Below, piece after piece: positions 2,689 through 39,918 of a stretch of DNA of 64,000 bases; the first letter of the stretch is position 1; each line of letters begins with the position of its first letter. The DNA comes from Pantoea allii (GTDB taxonomy: Bacteria; Pseudomonadota; Gammaproteobacteria; Enterobacterales; Enterobacteriaceae): positions 1 to 64,000 of the forward strand of contig NZ_NTMH01000012.1 of assembly GCF_002307475.1 (NCBI RefSeq), in the 5' to 3' direction. The position numbers and the translations under genes were made by a program. The notes below the pieces were generated by a model. That model had not been told where the DNA came from. It worked only from the letters and a program-made list of their open reading frames with translations, and did not search any database.

Positions 2689-3009
2689 ATGAATCAACCC
2701 TCTGTGCCATCCAACACTGAACCGGCTGCGGACGCTGACTGGCTGCGTTTTGTTGACCTGATGCATCAGGCTTTTGCGGACCATCACGCGCTGCCGCTGT
2801 TGCAACTGATGATGACGCCTGATGAGCGAGAGGCTTTTGGTACACGCTTGCGTATCATTGAATCCTTGCTGAATGGCGATATCAGCCAGCGTGAGTTGAA
2901 AAATGAACTGGGCGTGGGAATTGCCACGATAACCCGTGGTTCAAACAGCCTGAAAGAAGCCCCTCCAGAGCTGAAGCGTTGGCTGGAAGCGCAACTTCAT
3001 CGCCGCTGA
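2689..3009 (+). CDS. trpR: Trp operon repressor TrpR
   Basis: DNA-binding repressor that, with bound L-tryptophan, blocks trpEDCBA, aroH, mtr and its own gene in E. coli. The 106-residue product (E. coli 108) has the all-helical TrpR fold. The helix-turn-helix is in [20 protein letters not shown], preceded by [17 protein letters not shown]. The first ~18 residues diverge from E. coli, as is usual for the flexible arm. The gene lies directly after its operator and ends base-to-base against convergent yjjX: the trpR TGA at 3007-3009 abuts the yjjX stop at 3010-3012, leaving no room for a separate terminator. Confidence 0.97.
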
Positions 3010-3528
3010 TTATTGCTGATAGAACGGATGTGTGAGCGGACAGAGCGCCAAAATCAAGGCCTGGTGGTAGACGCTGGTGCGGCTAAGCAGGCCATTGGTC
3101 AAGGTACCGATCGCGCCACCTTTGTGTTTAATGTTTTCGACCCCGGTCAGACGTGCCATTTCTTCGCCCAGTTCGCGACCTTCACGTAATCCGGCCATCA
3201 CAACCGGCGGCAGGGTAAAACTGGCCGAACGCGACTCGCCACGCTGTTTCTGGTTTTCCACTACCATCCAGGCAAAGGCAGACTCTTCTTCAATACCTGC
3301 TTCAATCGCCACCCAGAAGTCGGCTTCCGGGCGAACCTGACGGGCATTCATGACACGCTGACGTGCGCCAGTTCGCGTTTCGTGATTGGTTAATGGCTGT
3401 GCGGCAACGCCGCTCTCGACCTCGACCCCTTCAATATGGCAGGATCCCTCGCCGAAAACGTCGTTGAATGCCTGAGCAATTGCACGAATCTTTGCTGGAT
3501 TAATGGTAGCTGCGACAACATGGTACAT
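3010..3528 (-). CDS. yjjX: Inosine/xanthosine triphosphatase (non-canonical purine NTPase)
   Basis: House-cleaning enzyme that hydrolyses ITP/XTP so that deaminated purines are not built into nucleic acids. The product starts [14 protein letters not shown] and contains [27 protein letters not shown] and a C-terminal [14 protein letters not shown], all as in YjjX. ATG at 3528 gives 172 residues and matches the E. coli start (MHQVV). An in-frame TTG two codons upstream (3534) has a better-spaced ribosome-binding site (GAGGG, 5 bases away), so a start at 3534 is possible. Convergent with trpR and divergent from gpmB. Confidence 0.93.
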
Positions 3529-3588
3529 AATCAATTGAACCCTCAGGTAATAAAGGCGATTTTGGTCGCAGTATAACGGAAACTAAGC

Positions 3589-4236
3589 ATGCTACAGGTC
3601 TATCTTGTTCGTCACGGTGAAACGGTATGGAATGCAGAGCGTCGCATTCAAGGGCACTCCGACAGTCCGCTGACGGAAAAAGGTGAGCAACAAGCCCGTC
3701 AGGTCGGTGAACGTATCAAAAACGCAGGTATCACACATATCATTTCCAGCGATTTAGGGCGCACCCGGCGCACCGCTGAAATCATTGCTGATGCCTGTGG
3801 ATGTGACATTACCTTCGACCCGCGTTTGCGGGAGCTGAATATGGGCGTACTGGAAAAGCGTCTGCTTGACGAACTGAGCGCGGAAGAAGAGCGCTGGCGC
3901 GCTTCGCTGGTTAACGGAACCGAGGGTGGCCGTATTCCTCAGGGCGAGTCAATGACGGAGCTGGCGCAACGTATGCAGGCTGCTCTGGATGCCTGTCTTG
4001 CGCTGCCAGCCGGTAGCCGTCCATTACTGGTCAGCCACGGTATGGCGCTGGGTGTTCTGGTCAGCACGATTCTGGGGCTGCCGGCTTATGCCGAGCGTCG
4101 TCTTCGCCTGCGCAACTGTTCGATCTCACGCGTCGATCATCAGCAGAGCGCGTGGCTGGCGCAGGGTTGGGTCGTGGAGACTGCGGGTGATATCACCCAT
4201 CTCGACGCGCCTGCGATGGACGAGCTTCAGCGTTAA
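3589..4236 (+). CDS. gpmB: GpmB/YtjC histidine-phosphatase family protein
   Basis: Member of the phosphoglycerate-mutase-like histidine phosphatase family. The product has 215 residues, as in E. coli. The catalytic RHG motif is at residues 8-10 (LVRHGETVWN, His9 as the phospho-acceptor), with SSDLGRTRRTAEII near 54 and the second catalytic His in LLVSHGMALG. Although named as a mutase, E. coli GpmB has little or no phosphoglycerate mutase activity and probably acts as a phosphatase; the natural substrate is not evident here. Convergent with rob across a 25-base palindrome. Confidence 0.93.
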   Translation: MLQVYLVRHGETVWNAERRIQGHSDSPLTEKGEQQARQVGERIKNAGITHIISSDLGRTRRTAEIIADACGCDITFDPRLRELNMGVLEKRLLDELSAEEERWRASLVNGTEGGRIPQGESMTELAQRMQAALDACLALPAGSRPLLVSHGMALGVLVSTILGLPAYAERRLRLRNCSISRVDHQQSAWLAQGWVVETAGDITHLDAPAMDELQR

Positions 4237-4275: not shown

Positions 4276-5142
4276 TTAACGGCGAATCGGAATCAGATAT
4301 TCACAGTGAATCTCTGTTGGCGGCTCGCTGCGCTTTTTGCCGCCATGGGTAATAAAGCGTTCAATATCCTGCCCCATACGGCGCGTCAGGCCCAGCGTTG
4401 GCATACAGGTTCCGTACAGCAACAGAATAAATTCCTGCAGTTCCACGCGCGGGCCATTGTAGTTGAACTGAACGTAATCTCCCGCTTCAAGAATCACCTT
4501 CTGCCCTGAATACATCGTGGTTGCGCTGTCGGCAGGAACGGCCGTGGTGTACAGAATCTCCTGCTCATCATCCTTTTCATGACTGGCACGGACCTGGTGC
4601 AACCCATAAAGCACGGGCGGAACCGTATCCGTTTCCAGCAGAAACTGTTTCCAGAAATGAACACGCATCTCATCACGGTAGCTGGAGATTTGTTCCAGGG
4701 TACAGGTATAACTCTGTGTCTGTCCCATCAGCACGGTTTCCGGAAGCGTCACGAACTGCGATTCTGGCTGCTGTTCATTCCCTAACCGAATCGGCGGGCG
4801 GATACCAAAGGAGTTCCATTCTGACGAACGGCGATACCATGCAGGTGTTTGATTAAACTGCTTTTTAAAGGCTCGCGTAAAGGTCTGTTGTGAATCAAAA
4901 CGATACTGCAGAGCAATATCGAGAATCGGGCGGCTGGTCAGGCGAAGTGCTACCGCTGCTTTGGAAAGACGTCGTGCCCGGATGTAAGCGCCAATGGCGT
5001 GTCCGGTAACGTCTTTAAACATCCGTTGTAGATGCCATTTAGAATAACCCGCTTTAATGGAAACATTATCCAGTGAAAGTGGTTGATCCAAATGGCTCTC
5101 CAGCCAGGCAAGCAAATCGCGAATGATACCGGCTTGGTCCAT
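4276..5142 (-). CDS. rob: Right-origin-binding transcriptional activator Rob (AraC/XylS family)
   Basis: Regulator related to MarA and SoxS that activates stress and efflux genes. The 288-residue product (E. coli 289) has an N-terminal AraC-type DNA-binding domain with two helix-turn-helices (about residues 8-105; SIKAGYSKWHLQRMFKDVTG and FDSQQTFTRAFKKQFNQTP). A GyrI-like small-molecule-binding domain follows (about 120-288), which in E. coli responds to bile salts and fatty acids. Divergent from creA across a 195-base gap. Confidence 0.97.
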   Translation of the reverse strand: MDQAGIIRDLLAWLESHLDQPLSLDNVSIKAGYSKWHLQRMFKDVTGHAIGAYIRARRLSKAAVALRLTSRPILDIALQYRFDSQQTFTRAFKKQFNQTPAWYRRSSEWNSFGIRPPIRLGNEQQPESQFVTLPETVLMGQTQSYTCTLEQISSYRDEMRVHFWKQFLLETDTVPPVLYGLHQVRASHEKDDEQEILYTTAVPADSATTMYSGQKVILEAGDYVQFNYNGPRVELQEFILLLYGTCMPTLGLTRRMGQDIERFITHGGKKRSEPPTEIHCEYLIPIRR

Positions 5143-5337
5143 AAAACATCCTCATACTCTGGTGGCGCAGCTAAATGAAGTCGACGAATAATAGCACTTA
5201 TTGCTTAAAAGACATGTTCGGTTTTGACAGGGATTGTTGTGCTATCTACGCGGGAATTTCTACCCTTTTTACGTTGGTGATTGCATCAATTAACAGTACA
5301 TTACATGCTCATCTATTACATTTGCAATGGTAACTCA

Positions 5338-5811
5338 ATGACAACACTTCGTCTTGTAATCCTCACCTTCGCAGGTTTACTGTTTTCCGGTCCGCTGTTG
5401 GCTGAAGAGATTGGCTCCGTCAACACCGTGTTTAAGATATTTGGACCTGACCATAAAATTGTGGTGGAAGCGTTTGACGATCCTGACGTAAAAAATGTCA
5501 CTTGCTACATTAGCCGGGCTAAAACAGGCGGCATTAAGGGCGGGCTGGGATTAGCGGAGGATACATCTGACGCGGCCATTTCGTGCCAGCAAATTGGGCC
5601 GATTGAACTGAGTGAAAAAATTGCCAAAGGCAAAGCAGAAGGGGACGTGGTGTTCCGCCAGCGGACGTCGCTGATCTTTAAGAAACTGCAGGTTGTGCGT
5701 TTCTTTGACAGCAAGCGTAACGCATTAGTCTATCTGGCGTACTCAGACAAAGTGGTGGATGGCTCACCCAAAAATGCGTTGAGCGCCGTACCGATTATGC
5801 CGTGGCATTAA
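5338..5811 (+). CDS. creA: CreA family secreted protein
   Basis: Exported protein of unknown role. ATG at 5338 gives 157 residues, the same as E. coli, with a signal peptide ending at [11 protein letters not shown]; the in-frame upstream codons from 5281 add sequence with no homology. Conserved blocks are [39 protein letters not shown] (two conserved cysteines with KNVTC) and [16 protein letters not shown]. In E. coli creA heads creABCD, where CreBC is a two-component system. Here creB, creC and creD are missing and creA is followed directly by arcA on the other strand. Confidence 0.95.
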
Positions 5812-5825
5812 GGCCAGGACATTAA

Positions 5826-5850
5826 AAACGCCCGTGAGGGCGTTTAAAAA
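5826..5850. terminator. Bidirectional terminator between creA and arcA
   Basis: AAACGCCC-GTGA-GGGCGTTT hairpin. Read on the minus strand it is followed by a five-base T run, giving a standard intrinsic terminator for arcA. Read on the plus strand the T run is only three bases, so it is weaker for creA. Confidence 0.8.
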
Positions 5851-5858
5851 ACGACAGA

Positions 5859-6575
5859 TTAATCCTGCAGGTCGCCGCAGAAACGATAGCCTTCACCATG
5901 AATGGTGGCGATGATTTCCGGGGTATCTGGCGTGGATTCAAAATGTTTGCGGATACGACGGATCGTCACGTCAACGGTACGATCGTGTGGCTTGAGGTCG
6001 CGTCCGGTCATCTTCTTCAGCAAATCAGCACGTGTCTGAATCTTGCCCGGATTTTCGCAGAAGTGCAGCATGGCACGGAACTCACTGCGCGGCAGTTTGT
6101 ACTGCTCACCGTTGGGATTGATCAGCGATCGGCTGTTGATGTCCAGCTCCCAGCCGTTGAACTTGTAGCTTTCAACCTGGCGGCGCTCTTCATTAGGCAA
6201 AGGCAAATTCATGGTGCGCAACAGCAGGTTACGGGCACGAATAGTTAATTCACGTGGGTTGAACGGTTTGGTGATGTAGTCATCTGCACCAATTTCCAGC
6301 CCAAGGATCTTATCGACTTCATTATCGCGTCCGGTCAGGAACATCAATGCCACATTAGCTTGCTCACGCAGTTCACGCGCCAGTAACAGGCCATTTTTGC
6401 CTGGCAGGTTGATGTCCATGATAACCAGATTGACATCATTGTCGGTCAACACCTGATGCATTTCTGCACCGTCGGTGGCTTCATATACGACATAACCTTC
6501 CGCCTCAAAAATACTTTTGAGGGTATTACGCGTGACCAGTTCGTCTTCAACGATGAGAATGTGCGGGGTCTGCAT
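5859..6575 (-). CDS. arcA: Aerobic respiration control response regulator ArcA
   Basis: Response regulator of the ArcB/ArcA system, which represses aerobic metabolism genes when quinones are reduced. The 238-residue product has a receiver domain (about 1-120) with the phospho-acceptor Asp54 in VIMDINLPG, acidic residues EDE at 10-12 and Lys in [10 protein letters not shown]. An OmpR-type winged-helix domain follows (about 135-232; [26 protein letters not shown]). Its upstream region (6576-6870) is long and carries an FNR site, in keeping with anaerobic induction by FNR known in E. coli. Confidence 0.98.
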
Positions 6576-34400: not shown

Positions 34401-34645
34401 AAGGTCGTCCACATATTCAGGACCGCCTGAAGAACGGCGAATATGCCTACATCGTGAATACCACAGCAGGTCGCCAGGCGATTGAAGACTCCAAGCTGAT
34501 TCGCCGCAGTGCGCTGCAATACAAAGTGCATTACGACACCACGTTGAACGGGGGTTTTGCAACGGCAATGGCGCTCAATGCGGACCCAACGGAAAAAGTG
34601 ATTTCAGTCCAGGAGATGCACGCACAAATCCTTGCGCAGAAATAG
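31415..34645 (+). CDS. carB: Carbamoyl-phosphate synthase large subunit
   Basis: Uses ammonia, bicarbonate and two ATP to make carbamoyl phosphate. ATG at 31415 ([18 protein letters not shown], with AGGAG upstream) gives 1076 residues (E. coli 1073). Two homologous ATP-grasp halves are visible: about 1-400 ([17 protein letters not shown]) and about 553-933 ([17 protein letters not shown]). A central oligomerisation region separates them. The C-terminal allosteric domain (about 935-1076), which in E. coli binds ornithine, IMP and UMP, completes the protein. Confidence 0.99.
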
Positions 34646-34667
34646 CGCAGGCTGATCGCGCGTCATC

Positions 34668-34728
34668 GCCCCTGTGGGGGGATCTCTGTCAGTAGGCTGA
34701 CAGACCGTCCTGCCTGCAGGGGCTTTTT
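34668..34728 (+). terminator. carAB intrinsic terminator
   Basis: An outer stem GCCCCTG / CAGGGGC encloses a second hairpin (CTGTCAG / CTGACAG) and is followed by TTTTT (34724-34728), 22 bases after the carB stop. Confidence 0.8.
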
Positions 34729-35371
34729 CGTGTTTAATCCCAGGAAGCCTGTCGGGACAACATCGGCCAGCAGGCCGTTGCATTGCGCGCAAAGAGCGGC
34801 GTCAGCGGCTGTTTTACAGATGGCGGAAATACGGTTCCTGCTATCAGCGGTCAGTGGCAAGCGAAGACTTCATCAAGGTGAGGTGCTGCAGGCATTATTG
34901 CTGGGGATGGGTTTTATCAGACCGCTGTTCATAGCCATTCAGACAAACTCTGTTAAACCCTATTTAAATTCAGCGCAATACAGGCTGTTAATCATGATGG
35001 CTGGTGCTGAATAACACGCTGTTCTGTATTTGGTTTTACCTGTTCTTTTCAAAATTATGACAAATTACGAATAAAAAGATGTTTAATCCTGCTTTGCGAA
35101 ACGTGGCGCACTAAATAGGGATATGTTGTCATTTAAATACTTGTTAATAATATCAACTCATTCCCTGTTGATTCCTCTTTCTCTGCCTTCTCCTGACCAT
35201 TTGACTGTTATTAAACAGATTTTAAACGAACCTGCATTGCTGTCGATCACGCCTGATAATCAACTGTTCAGTTGTTCCGCTTAACTTTATGATGCCCTGT
35301 GTTTTGCATGGTTTTACGTTTTCAGAGAACAGCCTCGTTTTTCTGAATTTTAAAGACTTAATTAAGAGCTC
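34729..35371. other. AT-rich region between carB and the Mig-14-like gene
   Basis: About 640 bases without a supported gene. The left third has mixed composition with a dubious 94-codon frame (34730-35014). The right two thirds (about 34960-35371) are clearly richer in A and T than the core genes. It contains the PhoP-box-like repeat at 35212-35228. This pattern is typical of a regulated, horizontally acquired gene. Confidence 0.5.
35212..35228 (-). promoter_or_regulatory. PhoP-box-like direct repeat upstream of the Mig-14-like gene
   Basis: TAAACAGATTTTAAACG reads on the minus strand as CGTTTA-N5-TGTTTA, against the PhoP consensus (T/G)GTTTA-N5-(T/G)GTTTA. The repeat period is exactly 11 bases; 11 of 12 hexamer positions match. 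It lies about 145 bases before the gene, in reverse orientation. mig-14 of Salmonella is PhoP-activated, which makes the placement meaningful, but binding is not shown. Confidence 0.5.
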
Positions 35372-36280
35372 GTGTTTAATATGTTTATTCCCAAATTTTT
35401 CAGGTGGGGACAGTGCTCTTTTGACGATTATCAAATAGCCTGTAATAGTTTTGGTTACAACTGCGAGTCAGCGCCGGGATTTATTGCATTTAAAATGCGA
35501 CATGAGCAGTCCTTTGAGTTTTATGCTTATAAACGTAAAGGCAAAATAGTGGGGAGCGTTTGCGTCGAAAATGGCTGGCTTGCCAATGACGGCAGACACC
35601 GGCAACGTTCTCTTCCCGCACTGCTTACACCGTCAACATCCGTCTATGTGCCTTTTTGCAACGAGGTTCCGCAAAAGGTGCTTTTACCTTTCCGTTGTAA
35701 GTCGCTGCATCACTTGCAGAGTCAGCGGTTTCTTAATACGTCTTATGGCCTGTTGAGTAAAAGCCATGCTGCTTTTACCAAGAACCCTGCTGCCGACTTT
35801 TCCCGGAAAACCGTCTCCACGCGGGAACGTGAGTTACGAAAGTTTCTTAATGACGGGGGCAGTTTTCTCAACGTCAGCCAGCTGGATGGCGAACACATTT
35901 TTGACGTATTTGAGACCCTTTACCAGGCGAGACGAAATCAGGCTATCGCTGACAGGGAAATCAATAAAGCGTTCTTCCGGGAATTTCAGCCTTGTTTCAA
36001 AGGCTACATCATGTTCCTGAATAATGAACCTGTTGCGCTGCAGCTGCTGTTATCTGTATCCAGCTGCGCCGGGATGTTCGTTGATTTTATTAATATCGGC
36101 TACCGGATGGACAGCAACGCAGGCGCTGTGGGTACGATGTTGATGTGGAAGAACCTGACGTCTGTGTATCAGGACGCTGCCGATATCCAGCTTCCGCTCT
36201 ATTACTCCTATGGATCGATGTCCGGGGACTATAAAAACCGGTGGTGCCATTCGGTCAATAATGGTCGAGTCATTATCTGA
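35372..36280 (+). CDS. Mig-14-like / GNAT-fold acyltransferase-type protein
   Basis: A 302-residue soluble-looking protein with no signal peptide. It resembles the Mig-14 family (acyl-CoA N-acyltransferase fold), linked in Salmonella to survival in macrophages and resistance to antimicrobial peptides. Recognisable parts are an N-terminal domain opening with WGQCSFDDYQIAC, a middle region ETLYQARRNQ, and a C-terminal YYSYGSMSGDYKNRWC. GTG at 35372 follows AAGAG closely; an in-frame ATG at 35381 is an alternative start. Base composition is lower in GC than its neighbours, suggesting acquisition. The Mig-14 assignment is by remembered similarity; another FemAB/GNAT-like protein is possible. Confidence 0.6.
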   Translation: MFNMFIPKFFRWGQCSFDDYQIACNSFGYNCESAPGFIAFKMRHEQSFEFYAYKRKGKIVGSVCVENGWLANDGRHRQRSLPALLTPSTSVYVPFCNEVPQKVLLPFRCKSLHHLQSQRFLNTSYGLLSKSHAAFTKNPAADFSRKTVSTRERELRKFLNDGGSFLNVSQLDGEHIFDVFETLYQARRNQAIADREINKAFFREFQPCFKGYIMFLNNEPVALQLLLSVSSCAGMFVDFINIGYRMDSNAGAVGTMLMWKNLTSVYQDAADIQLPLYYSYGSMSGDYKNRWCHSVNNGRVII

Positions 36281-36430
36281 TTGCTCAGATCGGCAAGGCC
36301 GCATTGTTGCCCGTCTGAGTCAGTCGATGATATTGGGAATGCGACTGCGCGAGGCGAAACGCCCTTTATTCACGCCCGCGCCATCGGGCGTTGCCCGCCA
36401 AACAGGCCTTTTTCGCATTATTCTGCACAC

Positions 36431-36460
36431 TTTCCCCTGCCAGCGCGGTGGCAGGGGAAA
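36431..36460. terminator. Hairpin between the Mig-14-like gene and the convergent reductase gene
   Basis: Perfect 12-base inverted repeat (TTTCCCCTGCCA / TGGCAGGGGAAA) with a 6-base loop. It lies between two convergent genes and reads alike on both strands. The T-tract is not extended beyond the three bases in the stem. Confidence 0.6.
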
Positions 36461-36477
36461 CGTGCCTGCCACATCTG

Positions 36478-37536
36478 TCAGGGAATAATCTTCGCCGTTC
36501 TGAACTGAGTAAAGAGACGGATAAACATCTCATCGGTCGCACGAAAACCCGTAAAGCCCGCCCGCCGCAGTTTGCTGCCATCGCCAAACATGTCGTAATC
36601 CCAGCTAAACACAAAGTCTGCGAACTGACCGTTACTCAACTTCATGATATCAGGCTCGACCAACAGCGTTTTTTCAGCCAGAGCCTGCCAGGTCTTGCGG
36701 TAATCGCTAAAGAGTTGCTGAAACGACAGCTGGACCGGCGGGGCCATCTCCAGTTCAAACCAGCCCGCAATGACCGGCCAGAGTTCACTCCACCGCCAGA
36801 TGTCACCGTTGTTAACATTGAATGCCTGATTTCTGGCGGCAGGGGCGGTCGAGGCCCATAGCGTGGCGGCAGAAAGTAAGCCGTCATCCGTATGATCGAC
36901 AATGCTATGCCAGGCTGTTTGTGACCCGGGAAAGCGCAGGGGCAGGCTCTGCGCTTTGCACAGTGAGGCATATATCGCGATACTCAGCGCAAGATTCATG
37001 GTATTGCCGGGTAATGCGCTGCCAACCACGCCGGGGCGAAGCGCATGCCAGTTCCAGGTTTTATTGCGCTGAAAGTCGCTTAGCCAGGCCTGTTGCGCCG
37101 TATTGAATTCCGCGCCGGGAATGGCAGCATCATTTTCTCTGGCGGGCGTTTTAAAGGGGCCAAGGTGAGCGCCGTAAATTTTGTAGCCCTGCATCAGGCT
37201 CACCGTTTCCAGCGGGGCAACTTTCTCAACCTGGGTGACCAGATTACGCAGCAGGGTCACGTTGGGTTCAACCATCTCCTGCCAGTTGGCGGCATTAAGC
37301 CAGGCGCTATAGAAAATATGTGTCACGTTACTTAGTGGCGTAAGGGCACGCGCGCTGTCTTTCTCATCCAGCAGATCGACTTTTACAAACGGGACCGCGC
37401 CGTGCCGATCGGTGCCTGAACGTGACAGTCCGATAACCTGCCACGCATTCTGCAACAACGTTTTGACCAACTGGCTGCCGACAATACCGCTTGCGCCAGC
37501 CACCAGTGCAACTTTAGATTGAGGCTTCTGTGACAT
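36478..37536 (-). CDS. NAD(P)-dependent short-chain reductase, PRISE-like
   Basis: A 352-residue atypical short-chain dehydrogenase with the N-terminal nucleotide motif VALVAGASGIVGSQLV. The order of motifs, including HIFYSAW, then SLMQGYKIYGAHLGPFKTPA and HALRPGVVGSA, resembles the PRISE group (progesterone 5-beta-reductase / iridoid synthase-like), which reduces activated C=C bonds of enones. The lysine-tyrosine pair in GYKIYG matches that group's active site. GGAGGA precedes ATG 37536. It is divergent from a LysR regulator that probably controls it. The substrate is unknown. Confidence 0.75.
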   Translation of the reverse strand: MSQKPQSKVALVAGASGIVGSQLVKTLLQNAWQVIGLSRSGTDRHGAVPFVKVDLLDEKDSARALTPLSNVTHIFYSAWLNAANWQEMVEPNVTLLRNLVTQVEKVAPLETVSLMQGYKIYGAHLGPFKTPARENDAAIPGAEFNTAQQAWLSDFQRNKTWNWHALRPGVVGSALPGNTMNLALSIAIYASLCKAQSLPLRFPGSQTAWHSIVDHTDDGLLSAATLWASTAPAARNQAFNVNNGDIWRWSELWPVIAGWFELEMAPPVQLSFQQLFSDYRKTWQALAEKTLLVEPDIMKLSNGQFADFVFSWDYDMFGDGSKLRRAGFTGFRATDEMFIRLFTQFRTAKIIP

Positions 37537-37631
37537 TTTCTTTCCTCCGGTTAGGTTGCAGACAGCGTGATATAAATTTCTTTTCGCCGATATCCCCGCA
37601 AGCTGATGTCACTTATAAGAGAAATGCGTAA

Positions 37632-38519
37632 ATGAATAACAAGCTCAATGCCATTCGCACCTTTTTACGTGTAGCCGAGGCCGGTTCCTTCTCTGCCGCC
37701 GCGCGCCAGTTGGGTATCAAGCAGTCAGCGGTCAGTCAGCAGATCGTCGCACTTGAGGCCGAGCTGGGCGTCGTCTTGCTGCACCGAACGACGCGCGTGA
37801 TGGTACTGACGGCGCAAGGGGAATATTACCGTGGCCAGATGCGGCCGATACTTGAGGCGATGCTGGCAGTCGAGAGCCAGTTGTCTTCTGCCACGCAGCA
37901 GTGGCAAGGCAAGGTAAACATCCAGTTGCCCGGCGGGTTAGGGCGGCTTTTTCTTCCCCACCTGCTCGCGCTGCAAAAGGCGAATCCGGGGTTGAATCTG
38001 ACGCTGTCGCTCGACGACCGGATATCTGACCTGGCCAGAGAAGGCGTGGATATTGCCTTCCGACTGACCCATGACGCACCGGATGTGTTTCCGGCAAGGA
38101 AGATCGCCCGAATTGAAACGCCGCTTTTCGCGTCACCGCGTTTTCCGCCAATCGTTTCGCTGGATGCGCTGGCGCTTCACCCGCATGTTCGCTTTAGCAG
38201 CATCGACGAGTCTGCGCCATTACGGCTTGTCAGAGATGATGAAACCGTGGAGCTGGCGGTGAATACGGTCTTCAGGGCAAACAGCAGTGAGGGATTATTG
38301 CAGGCATTGCAGGCGGACATCGGTGTCGGTGGTATGCAGCTACCGCTTGCAATGGAGGCACTGAAATCCGGCTCGCTTGTCAGGGTTTTACCCGCTTATC
38401 GCCATCCTGACCGCTTTCTGTATGCCGTTTTTCCGGATGCACGCTTTATTCCTGTCAGGGTAAGAGGCATCGCCACGTTAATCGAAAAGGTGCTGGCCAA
38501 CCTGCCCGGGGTAAACTGA
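37632..38519 (+). CDS. LysR-family transcriptional regulator
   Basis: A 295-residue regulator with an N-terminal winged helix-turn-helix (about 1-60; AGSFSAAARQLGIKQSAVSQ, LLHRTTRVMVLT). A LysR substrate-binding domain follows (about 90-290; VNIQLPGGLGRLFLPHLLAL). It is divergent from the PRISE-like reductase across only 95 bases, the usual layout for a LysR protein and its target. It is most like the single-gene-pair regulators of oxidoreductases; the inducer is unknown. Confidence 0.88.
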   Translation: MNNKLNAIRTFLRVAEAGSFSAAARQLGIKQSAVSQQIVALEAELGVVLLHRTTRVMVLTAQGEYYRGQMRPILEAMLAVESQLSSATQQWQGKVNIQLPGGLGRLFLPHLLALQKANPGLNLTLSLDDRISDLAREGVDIAFRLTHDAPDVFPARKIARIETPLFASPRFPPIVSLDALALHPHVRFSSIDESAPLRLVRDDETVELAVNTVFRANSSEGLLQALQADIGVGGMQLPLAMEALKSGSLVRVLPAYRHPDRFLYAVFPDARFIPVRVRGIATLIEKVLANLPGVN

Positions 38520-38778
38520 ACGTCTCTGTGCGGACGGCATGAAGCGGCGGGAGATAAGAGCGGCCTGAGGGGGGAATCGCACAGGACAAACCCGGTATGC
38601 GTGGCATCCTGCCAGCTTGACGTTAATATGCTTAAGTTAATTTGATTTAATTTTTAGCCAATCATGCCTAATCCGCTGATTCGCACAAATCTATAATATA
38701 AAAAACTACCAGGCTGACATTCACCGTTGTAATATCCGGCTCGCTCATTAATAGAGCCTAAACAGGATATTAATAACA
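38520..38778. promoter_or_regulatory. Upstream region of the porin gene
   Basis: About 260 bases; the part from 38620 to 38705 is very AT-rich. It must hold the porin promoter, but I could not assign -35/-10 elements or a regulator site with confidence. Confidence 0.35.
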
Positions 38779-39918
38779 ATGAAAGCGCGTTTTTTTTCAC
38801 TGAGTGCAGTGGCTGCACTGTTGGCCCTGGTGTCTTTTTCCAGCCAGGCTGAAATCACTCTTCTTAAACAAGACCCACAAGCAGGCGATCCCCTTAGCCG
38901 TCTCGATTTTAAATTCGGTGGCAGCATTCGTCCTCAGTTCAACCATCAAACCGGCGGGAAGGATCAGTCCTACAAGCGTAACGGCTTTGACGGTGGTTCC
39001 CGTTTCCGCTTTAGCGCGGATTACTACCTGTTCGACGATATCAGCTGGACCAGCTACTACGAGCTGGGCGTTAACATTCCGGCTGTATTCAACTGGGATA
39101 ATCACTACGCTGAAGGGGCGCATGAAACCACGCGTCGCCAGCTCTATACCGGCCTGAAAAGTAAAACCTGGGGCCAGTTGACCTTCGGTCAGCAGAACAG
39201 CGTGTATTACGACGTTGTGGGTGCCAAGACGGATATCTGGGATTACGACATGCTGGCCCAGGCACCGGGTAACGGCATTAACGGTGATTACGACGGTTCA
39301 TACCGTTCTCGCAAGCAGCTGAAATACAAAAACAGTTATGGTGCATTTGATGTTTATGCCTCTTACCTGTTTAGCGATAACGAATATTTGCCGGGCAACG
39401 GACTGCGCTATAAGCGTCAGGGTGGCGGCTCGCTGGGTGTGAATTACAACATCACGAACAATCTGGCCTGGGGCACCGCGTGGAACTACACCCGCGCCAC
39501 CATGCGTAATCCTGTCACCGGCGACAATAAAGATTACGACCAGAACATCTTTGGTACCGCATTAAGCTGGACGCCAGGCAACTGGACCCTGTCAGCAGGA
39601 GGCGGCTGGTACCAGAATTTCCTGACGACCAGACAGCGCGATGTGAATAACTATTTTGCTGATGATGCCTGGGGCATTGAATATTATGCCGGTTATAAAA
39701 TTCCGGTTGCGCAGTATGGCGTCAAAGCCGTTCAGCCTTATGTCATGGGTGACCGCTTAGAATATGTGAATGGCCGCAATTACCAGCGCATTGATAACGG
39801 TCTGGGCGTAACCCTGTTCCTGGACTATGGATTCCGTGTTGATTACGAACATGTCTTCACGTCGAGCACGGACAATCAGGGCGATATGAATCTGGTTCGT
39901 TTCCGCTACGATTTCTGA
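38779..39918 (+). CDS. Outer-membrane porin (general Gram-negative porin family)
   Basis: A 379-residue precursor with a signal peptide ending at SFSSQA-EITLL. Alternating aromatic/polar beta-strand patterns run through the protein, including LYTGLKSKTWGQLTFGQQNS, the classic porin segment before loop 3. The last residues RFRYDF end in phenylalanine, the Bam recognition signal. It looks like a channel of the OmpC/OmpF/PhoE superfamily but is not one of them. Substrate preference is unknown. A terminator follows directly. Confidence 0.85.
   Translation: MKARFFSLSAVAALLALVSFSSQAEITLLKQDPQAGDPLSRLDFKFGGSIRPQFNHQTGGKDQSYKRNGFDGGSRFRFSADYYLFDDISWTSYYELGVNIPAVFNWDNHYAEGAHETTRRQLYTGLKSKTWGQLTFGQQNSVYYDVVGAKTDIWDYDMLAQAPGNGINGDYDGSYRSRKQLKYKNSYGAFDVYASYLFSDNEYLPGNGLRYKRQGGGSLGVNYNITNNLAWGTAWNYTRATMRNPVTGDNKDYDQNIFGTALSWTPGNWTLSAGGGWYQNFLTTRQRDVNNYFADDAWGIEYYAGYKIPVAQYGVKAVQPYVMGDRLEYVNGRNYQRIDNGLGVTLFLDYGFRVDYEHVFTSSTDNQGDMNLVRFRYDF

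Follow-up and report, generated by a model that had tools for sequence, protein, structure and literature searches.

Published Mig-14 proteins, as described in the available part of PMC5913352, associate with the inner membrane and protect against cationic peptides. Mig-14p of the ColV plasmid of E. coli, also a member of the family, is activated by PhoP, confers CAMP resistance, is about 57% identical to Salmonella Mig-14, and, unlike the gene described here, shares an operon with hlyF (PMC5913352, same part). The mig-14 gene of Salmonella is assigned to promoter architecture II, in which a direct PhoP box about 12 nt from the -10 element is accompanied by an upstream box (PMC3335776, in the portion available). 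Two further sources, likewise accessible in part, touch on tailocins: killing spectra in Xenorhabdus bovienii are associated with two genes of the tailocin locus, one for a tail fiber and one for Mig-14 (PMC13280938), and a Mig-14-like gene is named, as a label only, in the legend of a Pseudomonas figure on tailocin sensitivity and genes of the LPS cluster (PMC8319346).

Here we describe a Mig-14-family gene in the window, by which we mean the whole 64-kb stretch of Pantoea allii DNA that was analyzed. We posit, putting the chance at about even, that the gene, a member of a divergent and partly phage-borne Mig-14 clade, was acquired, that its product would be an envelope-modifying GNAT-fold transferase, and that in P. 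allii and P. ananatis the gene is probably activated by PhoP.

A separate clade of the Mig-14 family

The Mig-14-like gene (35372-36280, plus strand) opens with GTG and encodes 302 residues; the ATG at 35381, which would yield 299 residues and aligns with the start in P. ananatis, is the likely start codon. A sequence-only reading had called the gene Mig-14-like, and a profile search bears this out: residues 43-297 match the Pfam Mig-14 family PF07395 with 105.2 bits (E 5e-30), far above the gathering cut-off of 22 bits. The profile of PHROG 29244 (phrog_29244), a family of unknown function, matches the protein with 150.7 bits (E 9.5e-44). It is not the Salmonella-type equivalog: the protein scores 101.7 bits against the NCBIfam equivalog NF011840, whose cut-off is 515 bits and which the relatives L006, L007, and L009 reach with 576.7-642.8 bits. 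It has PF07395, a length of about 300 residues, and a set of invariant positions in common with Salmonella Mig-14 (for example, W12, G162-G163, R187, N241, W259, S279, G281, Y287-K288, and W291) but is 24% identical to the equivalog member L006. The family analysis took in those of the matches listed for which loci had been fetched; L027 and L056 are absent from the family matches used. In the resulting tree of 55 members, the window protein falls in a 16-row clade (clade B), which is supported at 100/100, sits on a stem of 1.3 changes per column, and lies apart from the equivalog members. From its identity to the Salmonella protein, we infer that ColV Mig-14p belongs to the other clade, clade A.

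The closest named record is that of Pantoea ananatis LMG 2665, at 88% identity, which corresponds to genome G010 of our set (the upstream DNA is identical). Matches occur in 8 of 61 genomes of the genus, namely P. allii, G010, and six others at 25-27% identity, and Tatumella ptyseos carries a 52% identical relative at another site. In the available portion of PMC4070556, on a pan-genome of eight P. ananatis strains, every strain is reported to have a Mig-14 ortholog, and we infer that this ortholog is the present gene. The same portion records P. ananatis on plants and in insects, in keeping with the earlier suggestion, for a member of the same genus, of life on plants or insects.

Scanning viral contigs with the family alignment recovered 10 loci. 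Eight viral rows were added to give a 63-row tree, L095 entering as two rows and L091 (an apparent copy of L090), L092, and L096 (both with broken frames) being kept out; the window protein lies in a nine-row subclade supported at 100/100, four rows of which are phage-borne. Within this subclade, the phage-borne PHROG 29244 genes L087-L090 are 46-51% identical to the window protein. Judged by PHROGs, the upstream neighbors in L087, L088, and L090 are baseplate, structural, tail-fiber, or tail-fiber-assembly proteins, and the more distant L093 has the same kind of tail neighbors upstream; ORF lists suggest the same tail-gene layout in L089, L091, and L092, and L096 looks like host DNA. Neither the window protein nor L087 had a match among phage records; plasmid records gave 718 matches to the former and 78 to the latter, all below 60% identity and, among the matches listed, at most 26% and 30% identical, respectively.

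Several relatives occupy settings of their own. Besides the Mig-14-like gene and phage tail genes, the contig of L090 encodes an IncFII RepA (4759-5637), which suggests a possible phage-plasmid. L095 carries two Mig-14-family genes (1-921 and 2770-3705) separated by an antirepressor-type gene; the protein encoded by the second is identical to that of chromosomal L020. In L077, L079, L080, and L085 (and, in pieces, L078), clade B genes have as neighbors an LTXXQ gene and a cation-efflux gene, after which comes phosphofructokinase, and a response-regulator gene lies beside them, the families having been Pfam-tested in L077 and L079 only. We take this to be the cpxP/fieF site, and it is an apparent insertion hot spot for clade B genes. 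The neighbor family that accompanies clade B in eight loci is, by Pfam in the two loci examined, a cation-efflux family rather than virK. Near the clade B gene of L074 lies a DUF535 gene (5150-6100), which is presumably VirK-like; virK and mig-14 form a pair in Salmonella, and the L074 arrangement echoes that pair.

The block between carB and a porin gene

The setting of the gene is chromosomal, in the order carB, Mig-14-like gene, PRISE-like SDR gene (36478-37536, minus strand; PF22917, 83.4 bits), LysR-type regulator gene (37632-38519, plus strand; PF00126 and PF03466), and porin gene. Comparison with empty sites delimits a block, comprising the Mig-14-like, SDR, and LysR genes, at 34729-38638. 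Homology with the empty site of G011 restarts at 38639 on the right; on the left there is a weak match alone, reaching to about 34728, so the ends of the block are approximate. We inspected the carB site in the best-scoring 30 of 61 genus carB loci, P. allii itself included. The block is present in P. allii and P. ananatis (G010), where the ortholog has the same place past carB and the same SDR and LysR neighbors, and is absent from the other 28 of the 30, in which a porin-like gene lies 244-493 bp past carB and the first 1.5 kb past carB contains no Mig-14-like, SDR, or LysR match. Acquisition of the block is the simplest reading of this distribution; the block may instead have been lost from the other genomes of the genus. 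A search of 34600-38900 for long flanking repeats resembling insertion ends found none.

The description of the surrounding DNA as AT-rich agrees with the composition of the window, where the 1-kb step 35001-36000 has 42.4% GC and most other steps have 50-57%. GC content is 35.9% across the upstream DNA (35015-35371) and 47.1% across the gene, whose third-position GC (0.536) differs from that of carB (0.628); the values for the SDR (0.625) and LysR (0.651) genes resemble that of carB, and composition therefore sets apart the Mig-14-like gene only. A 94-residue ORF at 34730-35014 was rejected as a gene; the stretch is taken as non-coding because the ORF has no family match and conservation in P. 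ananatis is poor.

Whereas L087, L088, L090, and L093 are placed among phage genes, as morons are, no phage gene was found adjoining the window gene, whose immediate neighbors are carB and the SDR gene. This difference bears on an alternative that we regard as somewhat unlikely, in which the gene is a domesticated phage moron that would mainly alter a surface receptor, leading to superinfection or tailocin exclusion, with peptide resistance a secondary effect. Such an origin would account for the clade relatives found directly behind tail genes and would sit well with the X. bovienii gene associated with killing spectra (PMC13280938, available part) and with the Mig-14-like gene named in the Pseudomonas legend (PMC8319346). 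However, the Pseudomonas case is, in the part of the source available, a figure label alone; the tree carries no information on the direction of transfer between phage and chromosome; and published family members act on peptides (PMC5913352, available part).

PhoP-box-like sites at the locus and across the family

A pattern scan and alignment with P. ananatis locate a PhoP-box-like repeat, CGTTTA-N5-TGTTTA (in full, CGTTTA-AAATC-TGTTTA), at 35212-35228, where it agrees with the box at 11 of 12 positions. The sequence-only reading had already described this repeat at the same degree of match; we add that it lies on the minus strand, reverse to the gene, and that its distance upstream, which had been given as 145 bases, is 143 nt from the GTG and 152 nt from the ATG. 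It is the sole site in the 64 kb with at most one mismatch to KGTTTA-N5-KGTTTA, and its occurrence over that length is not significant, because 0.55 sites are expected in the window and 44 of 100 shuffles hold at least one. When the upstream DNA (35015-35371) was shuffled alone, 11/12 was reached in 2-3% of trials. The P. allii genome contains 112 sites of this type (a few of them counted twice, on contigs C29 and C30) against 67 for a reversed control pattern, which puts 11/12 sites near background. In P. ananatis, the 17-mer aligned with the box reads TGTTTA-N5-GGTTGA and likewise matches at 11 of 12 positions, with its mismatch at a different position; when the intergenic regions of the two species are compared in steps of 30 columns, identity peaks (0.83) at 35213-35242.

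At 59 nt from the box, we chose by eye a candidate -10 element, TATGAT (35288-35293, plus strand), to which TAAAAT corresponds in the alignment with P. ananatis. A promoter scan did not list TATGAT and instead placed a plus-strand candidate at 35126-35153, on the upstream side of the box. A second PhoP-box-like site, direct and weak (35300-35316, plus strand; 10/12), is given low weight because 24% of shuffles of 35015-35371 show 10/12. In the available part of PMC3335776, Salmonella promoters of architecture V combine a second box with a reverse box that precedes the -10 by 30-58 nt, the distance at pipD being 58 nt. The arrangement in P. allii, with a reverse box 59 nt from a -10 chosen by eye and a second site of 10/12 only, could fit this architecture; it differs from that of Salmonella mig-14, whose box is direct.

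The regulator itself is encoded in the P. allii genome (444.7 bits, curated cut-off 336), and the phoP promoter carries CGTTAA-N5-TGTTTA (10/12) 12 nt before a TATACT picked by eye; a search of the genome for MgrB (PF13998) gave no match. Exact matches to the PhoP box number two. One, at G000:C33:82604-82620 (L038 1501-1517; 12/12), has a Cys/Met-metabolism gene on one side and a VTT/DedA-type gene on the other; the second falls inside an ORF, at its 3' end, and we take this ORF to be dapF. Contigs C29 and C30 of this assembly (G000) carry several PhoP-box-like sites and a response-regulator gene at the same spacing in both, so the assembly seems to contain a duplicated stretch.

PhoP-box-like sites are enriched upstream of family genes. 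A match of 11/12 or better occurs within 300 bp upstream of the longest-ORF start in 13 of 54 family genes, as against 0.92 expected (60 shuffles, maximum 3); duplicate loci (L001, L002, L052, L071, and L072) were dropped from this count, and it covers 54 rather than 55 genes because L017 has just 109 bp upstream. Such a site is present in 7 of 35 clusters at 60% identity and at 2 of 72 neighbor genes, the latter serving as a control without matched AT content. By clade, the figures are 10 of 38 genes in clade A (0.59 expected) and 3 of 16 in clade B (0.19 expected); the Pantoea orthologs account for two of the clade B sites. Among the six other Mig-14 relatives of the genus, five have a site of at least 11/12, three at 12/12; the clade A loci L004, L040, and L041 from the genus have direct 12/12 boxes starting 36-45 nt before the longest-ORF start. 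No 11/12 site was found within 300 bp upstream of the seven phage-borne genes with upstream DNA (the closely related L087-L090 included), in the Tatumella relative, or in the chromosomal subclade members L047 and L049. PhoP control, if real, is thus not a property of the whole clade, given the absence of an 11/12 site from the Tatumella and phage-borne genes.

These distributions also bear on a tentative alternative, to which we give a little less than an even chance, that PhoP does not control the gene, the site being a chance match in AT-rich DNA and another promoter driving expression. The genome-wide and window-wide frequencies of such sites are near what chance would produce, the Tatumella and phage-borne relatives do without one, and the plus-strand candidate from the promoter scan, sitting upstream of the box, could serve instead. 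Against chance stand the 11/12 matches of both Pantoea orthologs at the aligned place, within the most conserved 30 columns, and the enrichment of PhoP-like sites across the Mig-14 family. Control of the Mig-14-like gene by PhoP is, on these sequence grounds, plausible.

Predicted fold and a candidate reaction

An AlphaFold model of the window protein, built with 11 alignment rows, has a pLDDT of 77.0 and a pTM of 0.77; it is weakest at residues 68-87 and weak too at 281-290, the site of a YKxxW motif. An alignment-free fold model reached a pLDDT of 35.6 and was set aside. At this pLDDT of 77, the predicted model displays the two-domain GNAT fold of FemABX/MprF-type transferases. Its best Foldseek matches are FemX structures (E 3.8e-6, TM about 0.5). 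In VIA-align comparisons of the predicted model, the Z scores were 14.1 (rmsd 4.4, 252 residues aligned) and 13.8 (3.7, 246) for FemX, 13.3 for FemA, 13.2 (4.1, 249) for the aminoacyl-tRNA-dependent synthase Sbb17, 11.3 for a Bacteroides protein of unknown function, about 10 for tandem GNATs, and 10.5-11.8 for MprF and related synthase domains, the last range overlapping the scores of single-domain GNATs, which align over some 120-150 residues and reach at most 10.5. The predicted fold is alike to that of FemX/FemA and the MprF synthase domains over about 235-255 residues at about 10% identity, and fold likeness alone reveals no function. By its C-terminal position, K288 may, we presume, match a catalytic lysine of FemX.

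Sequence comparison leads elsewhere. The window protein has no FemAB or LPG_synthase_C Pfam match at E up to 1, and hhalign to LPG_synthase_C, the family of the MprF synthase domains, gave a weak 31.9%. For PF13480 (Acetyltransf_6), the window protein again has no match at E up to 1, and five relatives (L050, L048, L006, L004, and L095) score above the cut-off of 22 bits; hhalign to a PF13480 protein gave 86.8%, with the YKxxW motif aligned, a link that is not independent because that protein was retrieved with the Mig-14 profile. A family-profile search of the sequences of solved structures returned ribosomal proteins only, at E 0.42 and above. That the sequence links go to Acetyltransf_6, and not to FemAB or MprF, would favor a plain N-acetyltransferase that uses acetyl-CoA to modify a peptide or small molecule and has no role at the envelope. 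We consider this unlikely: the near whole-length matches of the predicted model to FemX, FemA, and Sbb17 outscore the single-domain GNATs, and members of the family associate with the inner membrane and have a CAMP phenotype (PMC5913352, available part).

Most likely, as the model has it, the product is a transferase with a two-domain GNAT fold, of either the FemX/MprF or the Acetyltransf_6 type. An envelope-changing transferase is suggested because the published Mig-14 phenotypes, the tailocin associations, and the predicted fold combine. Such an enzyme would work at the inner membrane, on its cytoplasmic face, and would put an acyl or aminoacyl group on an envelope component, either a lipid or a lipid-linked precursor of LPS or polysaccharide. 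The altered surface would weaken the action of cationic peptides and may affect binding of phage or tailocin tail fibers, for example, by masking a phage receptor. In P. allii and P. ananatis, PhoP would probably activate the gene through the reverse box, which precedes the candidate -10 by about 59 nt. A bolder version, which we hold to be improbable, extends this scheme to the whole Mig-14 family as FemX/MprF-like enzymes that transfer aminoacyl or acyl groups to a lipid of the inner membrane or a precursor of LPS; phages would carry clade B genes behind their tail-fiber genes to mask their own receptor, and Pantoea would have incorporated one such gene in the chromosome and rewired it to PhoP as a defense against peptides.

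The literature on Mig-14, as far as it is accessible, presents an inner-membrane peptide-resistance factor and names no reaction. In the open-access papers searched, we found no text linking Mig-14 with FemAB or with an aminoacyltransferase, and a single one, PMC5913352, in whose available part MprF is mentioned once, that brings Mig-14 together with MprF. Nor did the accessible portions of that literature describe a separate clade, a phage-tail neighborhood outside Xenorhabdus, a family-wide enrichment of PhoP sites, or a FemX-like model. The predicted fold link to FemX and MprF would offer a candidate reaction for Mig-14, and the phage-tail neighborhood of the clade ties peptide resistance, surface structure, and sensitivity to phages and tailocins into one idea. 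The Pantoea site is a possible example of an acquired gene that has been put under PhoP.
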